Shown: positions 8,819 through 62,871 of the stretch, piece after piece | Position numbering within the stretch: position 1 is the first letter of the stretch | Layout: each line of letters begins with the position of its first letter | Assembly: GCF_946886895.1 (NCBI RefSeq) | Contig: NZ_CAMPJO010000001.1 | Coordinates: 310,001 to 374,000 of the forward strand | From: an uncultured Marinobacter sp. | GTDB taxonomy: Bacteria; Pseudomonadota; Gammaproteobacteria; Pseudomonadales; Oleiphilaceae | Direction of reading: 5' to 3' | Length of the DNA: 64,000 nucleotides | The notes under the pieces: model-generated | What the model saw: only the letters and a program-made list of their open reading frames with translations | The model's database searches: none | What the model was told of the DNA's origin: nothing | Translations under genes and position numbers: made by a program

Positions 8819-8825
8819 GAACCGA

Positions 8826-9000
8826 CTTCCTGGGTTGTTCGCTGGTCGGATACGTCCTCGAGCCGATGCGCATTACCCAGGTGGCTACTCTAGGGCATTG
8901 TGAGCACGTCCCCGACAGGGGAAAGCCTAATATGTCACAGCGGCCACCGACCTTGAACTTTGGGTTCAAGGGCAACATCCGATAACGGCAGCCCGGGAAG
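8826..9000 (+). ncRNA. ssrS: 6S RNA
   Basis: About 175 nt between zapA and fthC, the conserved place for ssrS. The ends pair: CTTCCTGGGTTG (8826-8837) with CAGCCCGGGAAG (8989-9000), with two G-U pairs. The characteristic 3' half is present: ACCTTGAACTTTGGGTTCAA followed by GGGCAACA, close to the E. coli and Pseudomonas 6S sequence. 6S RNA mimics an open promoter and sequesters sigma70 RNA polymerase in stationary phase. The 3' strand of the closing stem contains the GGGAAG that is also the likely ribosome-binding site of fthC. Confidence 0.92.
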
Positions 9001-9007
9001 CTTTATT

Positions 9008-13624: not shown

Positions 13625-13641
13625 CCTTTTAGTTTGGGGGA

Positions 13642-13751
13642 GGGGCCATGTCAGTGTTTGTTCCAAAACACGCTACGAGCACATCCATGTGCGCTTGTTT
13701 CGGGCCGTCCTTGGCCCTCAACAGTTTTGGAACAAACACTGACATGGCCCC
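13642..13751. repeat. Long inverted repeat with conserved core (element 1)
   Basis: Arms 13642-13669 and 13724-13751 are perfect 28-base complements (left arm begins GGGGCCATGTCAG). They flank a 54-base core (13670-13723). The complement of the core contains GGGCCAAGGACGGCCC and GCACATGGATGTGC, each able to form a small hairpin with GGA in the loop. The same core, with different arms, recurs at 62788-62841. With element 2 it fills most of the 443-base gap between the acyl-CoA dehydrogenase gene and ppa; I see no coding potential in that gap. Confidence 0.9.
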
Positions 13752-13834
13752 CGCGACCTGAGGTGCAGACCGCCTGCGTTACACCACAAAGTTGCCAATC
13801 ATCAAATCCTGGACGGCATTGCTGAAAAGTCAGG

Positions 13835-13945
13835 GCGGCTATCTGGAAGGGCATTCCGAAAACGTGGAGCGCCAGGGATGGCGCGACCGAGCCCTACAGG
13901 GATGTATTCACGGGCGTTTTTCGGAATGCCCTTCCAGATAGCCGC
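13835..13945. repeat. Long inverted repeat with related core (element 2)
   Basis: Arms 13835-13862 and 13918-13945 are perfect 28-base complements (left arm begins GCGGCTATCTGG) and share no similarity with element 1. The 55-base core (13863-13917) has GCGCCAGGGATGGCGC and CTACAGGGATGTATT in the same order and spacing as the paired GGA hairpins of the other elements, so the core appears to be a diverged relative of theirs. It lies 83 bases after element 1. Confidence 0.88.
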
Positions 13946-13989
13946 TTGCACCATACCCAGCAGCAACCATCAGACATACCAAGGTTTAG

Positions 13990-19812: not shown

Positions 19813-20253
19813 ATGTCGACAATTCTCGTGCTCCACGGCCCCAACCTCAATATGCTCGGCACCCGCGAGCCCGAGGTGTATGGCCACGAGACACTGGCGG
19901 ACATTGACGACCGGTTGCGCCAGACGGCGGCCGACACCGGCCATCACCTGCTGCACCTTCAGTCAAACGCCGAGTATGAACTGATTGAGCGGATTCACGA
20001 AGCCCGTGCCGAGGGCGTGGATTTTATCCTGTTTAATCCGGCGGCCTTCACCCACACCAGCGTCGCCCTCCGGGATGCCATGCTGGCGTCCGGGATTCCG
20101 TTCATTGAAGTGCATCTTTCCAACGTGCATGCGCGGGAATCGTTCCGCCATCACTCCTATTTCTCCGATATCGCCGAGGGCGTTATCTGCGGGCTAGGCA
20201 GCCAGGGCTACGATCTGGCCCTCCAGGCGGCCTTGCGACGCATTCACCGATAG
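19813..20253 (+). CDS. aroQ: 3-dehydroquinate dehydratase, type II
   Basis: A 146-residue class II dehydroquinase of the shikimate pathway, making 3-dehydroshikimate. Visible motifs are the active-site [17 protein letters not shown] (about residues 8-24, with the catalytic tyrosine), the NPAAFTHTS loop with catalytic histidine partner (about 74-82) and [11 protein letters not shown] (about 98-108). Length is normal. ATG 19813 (MSTILVLHG) is preferred over an upstream ATG at 19750, which adds 21 non-family residues. It precedes accB by 27 bases, the usual aroQ-accB-accC order in gammaproteobacteria. Confidence 0.96.
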
Positions 20254-27514: not shown

Positions 27515-27530
27515 GGGAAGATTCGGGAGT

Positions 27531-27613
27531 GTCGGATTACGCCTTTGGCTAATCCGACCTACGACCTGACACTCGAATACAGTAGGTCGGATTAGCCAAA
27601 GGCGTAATCCGAC
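27531..27613. repeat. Inverted repeat between purH and purD (BIME/REP-like)
   Basis: Two perfect 32-base complementary arms, 27531-27562 and 27582-27613, separated by 19 bases. Each arm is itself palindromic at its ends (GTCGGATTA...TAATCCGAC). The arm resembles the widely dispersed proteobacterial repeat GTAGGTCGGATTAGCC followed by GTAATCCGAC, as I remember it. It starts 16 bases after the purH stop and ends 17 bases before purD, so it would form a large hairpin in a purHD transcript. Confidence 0.88.
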
Positions 27614-27630
27614 AAAACAGGAATACGCTC

Positions 27631-49677: not shown

Positions 49678-50045
49678 AATTGATCCCCAGACCCTTAATG
49701 ATCGTAATTCTGTCATTGGCATAGCTTACTATGCCAGTATTGCATCACGATTCGCGGCCCGTCCGAATGCATGCGGGGCCCGAGGCGAGGCGCCTCCCAA
49801 AAATGTTGGAGGCCCGGGATGGCCGGAAACAAGCAAACAGGGAATCTGCGCAGTAGAAACCCCTACAACCCGGTGACAACCCACACCCGTATTTTGTAGG
49901 ATGCTATTCTTTGGGAAACGTGAATATTTCCCGTATTTCAACAGTCTGTTGTAAAGCAAGAGATCGGCAAGGGATCGCAGATCACCAGCCTCCCTATAGA
50001 ATCTTGCCCCATAAAAACCGGACCCAGAATTCCAGGACCTGAACT
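49678..50045. other. Intergenic region between the J-domain gene and the RND operon
   Basis: 368 bases without a gene. It holds a solo copy of the palindromic-repeat core at 49804-49834 and an AT-rich part (about 49895-50000) where the RND operon promoter must lie; no consensus promoter or palindromic operator for a local repressor is evident. Confidence 0.6.
49804..49834 (+). repeat. Solo, armless copy of the palindromic-repeat core
   Basis: TGTTGGAGGCCCGGGATGGC continuing with CGGAAACAAGC matches the first 31 bases of the core in the element at 62758-62871 (62788-62818) with two or three differences. GGCC-CGGGAT-GGCC keeps the GGA loop. The second half is replaced by AAACAGGGAATCTG, which again has GGA. 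No complementary 28-base arms flank it. Confidence 0.7.
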
Positions 50046-62757: not shown

Positions 62758-62871
62758 AAGGGAGCGGTGGGATTGCTCTGCACAGAATGTTGGAGGCCAT
62801 GGATGGCCGGAAACAAGCGCACATGGACGTGCTCGTAGCGGTTCTGTGCAGAGCAATCCCACCGCTCCCTT
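62758..62871. repeat. Long inverted repeat with conserved core (element 3)
   Basis: Perfect 30-base complementary arms, 62758-62787 and 62842-62871 (left arm begins AAGGGAGCGGTGG), flank a 54-base core (62788-62841). The core matches the complement of the core of element 1 (13670-13723) closely, while the arms are unrelated to it. It holds GGCCATGGATGGCC and GCACATGGACGTGC, both with GGA in the loop. Its place between convergent genes suits a terminator-like role; it leaves about 44 bases before slmA. Confidence 0.9.

Follow-up and report, generated by a model that had tools for sequence, protein, structure and literature searches.

A dispersed family of TwoAYGGAY-like hairpins at gene 3′ ends in Marinobacter, with candidate CsrA-docking loops

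Introduction

REP, BIME and REPIN sequences are high-copy intergenic palindromes that lie near gene 3′ ends, often with inverted neighbours, and REPs are conserved in sequence throughout. The CsrA/RsmA loop consensus is (A/U)CANGGANG(U/A). In the passages of PMC4333381 on sponge RNAs, CsrB/CsrC/RsmX-Y-Z carry GGA hairpins that present CsrA sites. TwoAYGGAY RNA (RF01731) appears among the RNAs listed in PMC2864571, and the lines devoted to it in PMC4333381 describe an outer stem of low conservation that carries two AYGGAY hairpins, and predict that CsrA binds it.

The present study followed up three palindromes in a window of 64,000 nucleotides of Marinobacter DNA, the whole stretch analysed. 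The original prediction described a conserved core enclosed by perfect arms that differ between loci and knew of no description of this design. That the design is undescribed is not supported, because TwoAYGGAY has the same plan and, in the lines of PMC4333381 cited above, a predicted CsrA link. For dispersed elements of this kind, no description was found in the literature searched by title and abstract opening, a scope outside which most subscription journals lay. Each palindrome is, in our view, probably (roughly 0.6) one of many scattered structured RNAs of the TwoAYGGAY kind, and a candidate CsrA docking site at a gene end.

Elements in the window

Element E1 (13642..13751) has its GGA strand on the minus strand, and its arms (13642-13669 and 13724-13751) enclose a core of type A (13670-13723). 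Reading of the sequence and folding placed its hairpin 1, GGCCAAGGACGGCC, at 13703..13716 (-) and its hairpin 2, GCACATGGATGTGC, at 13679..13692 (-). E3, the divergent neighbour of E1, lies at 13835..13945 with its GGA strand on the plus strand (arms 13835-13862 and 13918-13945, core 13863-13917) and has another core type. Its hairpin 1, GCGCCAGGGATGGCGC, at 13869..13884 (+) and hairpin 2, GCCCTACAGGGATGTATTCACGGGC, which has a one-sided bulge, at 13891..13915 (+) were also located from sequence and fold. E2 (62758..62871, GGA strand plus) again has a type A core (62788-62841), between arms at 62758-62787 and 62842-62871. The position of the core pattern and the fold placed hairpin 1 of E2, GGCCATGGATGGCC, at 62795..62808 (+), and hairpin 2, GCACATGGACGTGC, was read from the sequence at 62819..62832 (+); the minimum-energy fold draws the latter slightly otherwise and the centroid lacks it.

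An inverted-repeat search of the window (arms of at least 20, distance of up to 300) returned seven repeats. The arms were 28 nt in E1, 28 nt in E3 and 30 nt in E2, around cores of 54, 55 and 54, respectively, and all were 100% complementary; the three palindromes with perfect arms of 28-30 are confirmed at the positions given above. Among the remaining repeats, only 27530-27614 has 100% complementary arms. This different perfect palindrome has 33-nt arms and a 19-nt loop, and contains ...GTCGGATTA...TAATCCGAC...; by eye, several loci (L193, L196, L197, L201-L203, L229, L231) have relatives of it in the stretch that separates two divergent elements.

A covariance model (R1), built from 53 elements, recognised E1 at 13641-13752 (-) with 114.5 bits, E3 at 13834-13946 (+) with 94 bits and E2 at 62759-62870 (+) with 117.5 bits. 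A 24-position core pattern gave three window matches at up to three mismatches, whereas 100 shuffles averaged 0.00. The extra one among these three, at 49811..49834 (+), is a decayed copy without an intact 3′ half (remnant about 49776-49870). It keeps the first hairpin and the beginning of the second, and has no R1 match.

Fold and relation to TwoAYGGAY

Folding predicted that the core forms two hairpins with ANGGAY hexaloops. Hairpin 1 reads CCANGGAYGG in 123/134 copies and hairpin 2 reads ACANGGAYGT in 117/134, and comparison of the copies establishes a conserved core. Both strands folded far below shuffles (z about -11), and the 28-bp stem can form on either strand. An extension of the stem into the flanks was rejected: the folds of 142 elements with 40-nt flanks looked the same as those with swapped flanks.

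At the gathering level, the Rfam scan of the window returned 6S (SsrS) RNA only, at 8824-9003 (+) with 91.4 bits, and no CsrB/CsrC/RsmX-Y-Z family; 12 further loci gave no match at this level. The best Rfam match of E1 was TwoAYGGAY with 33.2 bits, under the gathering cut-off of 43. The two hairpins with AYGGAY-type loops that belong to this family were present, with ANGGAY in both. A variable outer stem around both hairpins was also found, although the part of this result that comes from set A1 (53 rows) is biased, as are all A1 counts, because its rows were picked for at least 24 perfect arm pairs. One element of another genome (G197:C7, about 20006-20137) scored 66.7 bits with R1 and 44.6 bits with RF01731, above the RF01731 cut-off. 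This cut-off was exceeded in 13 genomes, of which only G197, G310 and G342 also belong to the 48 with an R1 match.

The present elements and RF01731 share a long, poorly conserved outer stem that encloses two AYGGAY-loop hairpins, and both are multi-copy in some gammaproteobacteria, with RF01731 matches of up to at least nine per genome. They differ in that E1 falls under the family cut-off. Moreover, the arms of RF01731 elements begin alike within a genome (three genomes; seven distinct elements, from 10 delimitable loci of 24, three of them duplicates), whereas those in Marinobacter differ from locus to locus, measure about 28 bp and pair perfectly. We read the family as a form of the TwoAYGGAY kind that abounds in Marinobacter.

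Size and spread of the family

Comparison assigns E1-E3 to a dispersed family of RNA-like hairpins across Marinobacter genomes, in which a typical copy consists of an arm of ~28 bp, a core of 54-58 nt and the complementary arm. An exact 31-base core pattern occurred in at least 118 genome stretches; among the matches listed, 117 were from Marinobacter and one was from a Rhodopirellula MAG. The contig with the latter label (L018, NZGD01000124.1) bears a Marinobacter-type element and is probably mis-binned. The 118 loci and the window contained 299 inverted repeats (arms of at least 12, spacers of 0-130), 142 of them with a spacer of exactly 54. In the 181 elements drawn from these repeats, the arm length was 27-30 in 118 when one mismatch was bridged, and the near-constant arm length that had been claimed was thereby borne out.

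In each of 10 Marinobacter genomes, R1 found from at least 24 to at least 114 copies per genome (150 candidates scored per genome). It found 16 copies in one Marinobacter contig of 387,809 bases that was read whole, which extrapolates to about 170 copies per genome. A survey of 274 gammaproteobacterial genomes, the Marinobacter centre G001 among them, in which 13 candidates were scored in nearly every genome under stricter filters, gave an R1 match at E <= 1e-4 in 48. Two class-sample genomes outside this centre, G213 (11 copies) and G310 (nine copies), have the same plan. Mean arm identity was 46% in G213 (highest 71%) and 54% in G310 (highest 89%), and mean core identity, for comparisons between cores of the same length, was 95% in G213 (n=14) and 85% in G310 (n=36). 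The claim that arms differ while cores are alike therefore extends to these genomes. Phage or plasmid cargo was considered and rejected: with the 55-base core of E3, phage sequences yielded no match and plasmids a single record, that of Marinobacter adhaerens HP15.

Strand bias of stem pairing

Non-Watson-Crick pairs were counted at 27 stem positions in 134 copies. As read on the GGA strand, 86 were G·U, nine were A·C and 56 were other pairs; these counts, like those of elements and gene contexts, are not independent because the loci were fetched by core pattern with orthologous sites included. G·U outnumbered A·C in every gene context that had such pairs. In elements antisense to both neighbours, the ratio was 13 to 1 for singles and 5 to 0 for paired elements. 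The bias was absent (20 to 37) at the outermost two positions of the model, which most stems do not reach. Imperfect pairs lay mostly toward the outer end of the stem, and the perfection attributed to the arms is to this mild extent reduced. A set of 29 more distant elements (20 G213/G310 copies and 11 other loci, minus two repeats) had 817 Watson-Crick, 12 G·U, two A·C and six other pairs.

Since G·U is far above A·C whatever the direction of the neighbouring genes, the GGA strand must pair. A symmetric mutation process or a function of double-stranded DNA would not yield a bias of 86 to 9. Comparison across the copies thus points to a pairing constraint on one strand in every gene context, and the strong selection for pairing that had been suggested is supported by this bias and by the both-sided changes among orthologues described below. 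Most simply, the pairing GGA strand is RNA. Single-stranded DNA, a less simple reading, would likewise favour G·T over A·C.

Placement at gene ends and flanking signals

The elements are placed at gene 3′ ends. R1 gave 153 hits, 62 of which make 31 neighbouring pairs less than 600 bp apart, and the GGA strands of these close neighbours were divergent in 31/31. Gene calls came from a home-made caller. Among 29 classified pairs, 15 lay between convergent genes, 14 between codirectional genes and none between divergent genes, versus 46 convergent and 120 divergent regions in a background of 389 intergenics. The 91 singles comprised 30 codirectional sense, 21 antisense, 16 convergent, 10 divergent and 13 edge cases, and one inside a predicted gene. 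GGA-sense codirectional singles were within 60 nt past the upstream stop codon in 25/30 cases, and GGA-antisense singles were within 40 nt of a stop codon in 20/21.

This position near stops, the excess of convergent pairs and the ability of either strand to form the 28-bp stem would also be expected of a 3′-end RNA structure with no CsrA role, namely, a two-way terminator or a barrier to exonuclease or read-through in the manner of REP/BIME. However, TTTT was absent from the first 12 nt past the stem in all 149 flanks (0/149), and hence the elements are not usual intrinsic terminators. Such a structure also leaves unexplained the conservation of the CANGGAYG loops and the one-strand bias, which was seen in both element orientations. 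We regard this explanation as unlikely, while it is the strongest of the rivals. The family does resemble REP/BIME/REPIN as high-copy palindromes at gene 3′ ends with inverted neighbours; unlike in REPs, sequence is conserved in the core only, and what the stem retains is its pairing.

Short tags accompany the stems at fixed distances. As part of a CCCCAAAC-N4-CAGGCTAG-like tag, AGGCT occurred 13-17 nt past the 3′ arm in 44/153 copies; three control stretches gave 2, 4 and 9. In pairs, this tag yields an outer inverted TAGCCTG...CAGGCTA. The outer flanks of L207 are complementary over about 24 nt. Before the 5′ arm, no TATAAT peak and no clear promoter were found, and ATATC clusters near -18. 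Of 143 flanks, 83 exceeded the threshold for a tag resembling TCTCAGAAGTTTG, and in 56 of these 83 it begins at -16 to -13. We take both signals as leads only. A weak tag like GACTATATCTCAGAAGTTTG, also at a fixed distance, lies within about -20 to -1 upstream of the 5′ arm and may be a promoter or start-site signal.

Possible docking of CsrA

We return to the preferred reading, a TwoAYGGAY-kind RNA element with candidate CsrA docking. Hairpin 2 matches the CsrA/RsmA consensus fully in 117/134 copies, and hairpin 1 matches the CANGGANG part only, with C for the first A/U and G for the last U/A in 123/134. We propose that the GGA strand would fold into a stem of ~28 bp that ends in a junction bearing two hairpins, whose ANGGAY hexaloops resemble CsrA/RsmA sites, that the folded strand would act as RNA, and that a CsrA dimer may bridge both loops. 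The copies would then be docking sites at gene ends that jointly titrate CsrA; alternatively, docking may tie mRNA ends and antisense read-through to CsrA. If this reading holds, the core is conserved and the arms vary because recognition depends on the sequence of the core, while the stem needs only to pair. Sequence conservation in the core, together with conservation of pairing in the stem, would explain conserved cores with locus-specific perfect arms without any special transposition. However, in many copies the GGA strand runs antisense to the gene next to it, which counts against a CsrA-docking RNA, as do the E1 score under the Rfam cut-off and the lack of gathering-level matches in the 12 further loci. 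The presence of the CsrA family PF02599 (44/48 genomes with the element versus 191/226 others) likewise does not track the element and gives no clear signal of co-occurrence.

We speculate, with considerable doubt, about a genome-wide CsrA docking or sponge system of at least ~100 two-site hairpins per genome in many gammaproteobacteria, in which stems would be renewed by template switching, with only pairing inherited, and cores would be exchanged. The GGA hairpins are of the CsrA-site type found in CsrB/CsrC/RsmX-Y-Z. In contrast to these few independent sRNAs with many sites each, many two-site elements are here scattered at gene ends. If the loops bind CsrA, its sites would lie at many gene ends, beyond a few sRNAs, and the titration of CsrA would be pictured anew. 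Whatever the function, many stems of one design, with a known strand, in each genome provide a data set on the origin of paired changes in RNA stems.

Arm changes among orthologous loci

The arms of different loci had been described as unrelated. Most unrelated loci indeed shared none, and the best agreement among 16 copies of one contig (G002:C2) was 19/28 bases. Recent transposition was rejected for these copies (120 comparisons) and for the three window elements (three comparisons), in which none was seen. However, a weak positional consensus, counted from the core, runs through the 181 elements, with A at -2 in 98% (n=181), C at -7 in 89% (n=181) and G at -17 in 82% (n=161 long enough). 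Arm sharing was found in a mild form: orthologues share arms, and two of the nine G310 copies have 25/28 arm bases in common.

Two syntenic sites were traced in relatives. DNA searches for both matched 124/124 Marinobacter genomes somewhere in the query, and 29/30 loci at the first site and 43/50 at the second were examined. Recognisable paired arms were kept among orthologues in five groups of 22, 21, 6, 17 and 13 elements, of which group E2+a also includes one duplicate (L209 = L232, same place) and three elements from the E- side. Nearest-neighbour steps gave 167 changed pairs when elements with more than two mismatches and steps of more than six changes were left out. Both sides had changed in 113 (59 transition and 54 transversion pairs); the rest were 31 one-sided and seven two-sided G·U, 14 one-sided mismatches (two A·C) and two others. 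A second set of 40 loci, which partly overlaps the sites of the five groups, had 52 both-sided changes in 86 (32 transition and 20 transversion), with 20 G·U, five A·C and nine others. Per-site difference in this set was 1.7% in cores, 5.2% in arms and 17.1% in flanks, the flanks being compared ungapped. The paired changes keep the arms complementary, and comparison within a locus thus reveals arms that drift as pairs.

Template switching within the hairpin, by which one arm is copied onto the other, had been named as an active process, and the near equality of transversion (54) and transition (59) pairs is compatible with it. So are indels mirrored in both arms (L124 vs L130 at E1 and L193 vs L204 at E2-), which depend on the alignment; moreover, the two E1 copies have different core types. 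The portion of PMC8794818 concerned treats template switching as a known mechanism for RNA stems, with both-sided changes and stems kept perfect as here, in reconstructed histories of RNA genes rather than in a dispersed repeat. Unlike the stems in that portion of PMC8794818, the present stems have a one-strand bias, which points to selection. The bias of 86 to 9 is unexpected from a strand-symmetric process, and a recombinant copy, L200, retains eight mismatches in 28. It is very improbable that the perfect arms arose mainly by template switching with selection minor; template switching may contribute beside selection on pairing.

At the E1 site, core types switch back and forth along a tree built from flanking coding DNA, whose 30 rows comprise 10 of type A, 11 of type B and nine with neither. 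Its starred branches force at least three changes for A and at least four for B, on a tree in which most forks are weak and one locus counted as A (L149) has unrelated arms. This alternation may reflect whole-locus exchange between species. In L200, the two arms match two different neighbour types. Cores appear exchangeable because of this recombinant and the alternating core types, and several loci without elements at one or both syntenic sites imply that gain or loss is frequent.

Core exchange, recombinant copies, divergent pairs, the short tags outside the stem and the similar arms of two G310 copies could also be accounted for by mobility or site-specific recombination in which one strand is recognised as folded single-stranded DNA, in the manner of IS200/IS605, REPIN or attC; copies of such an element would be dispersed as well, and the strand bias is also possible for DNA. 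However, no arms are shared within the set of 16 copies from a single contig, and the genes in the 32 spacings of 300-6000 bp between elements look by eye like ordinary metabolic and housekeeping genes. The sites are also old, with the same loci occupied across species, and we consider this origin improbable, somewhat less so than arms made mainly by template switching. At the second syntenic site, L183 and L189 show an apparent collapse of a divergent pair, in which a deletion between the second hairpins left half of each element, and L185 looks like a similar collapse.
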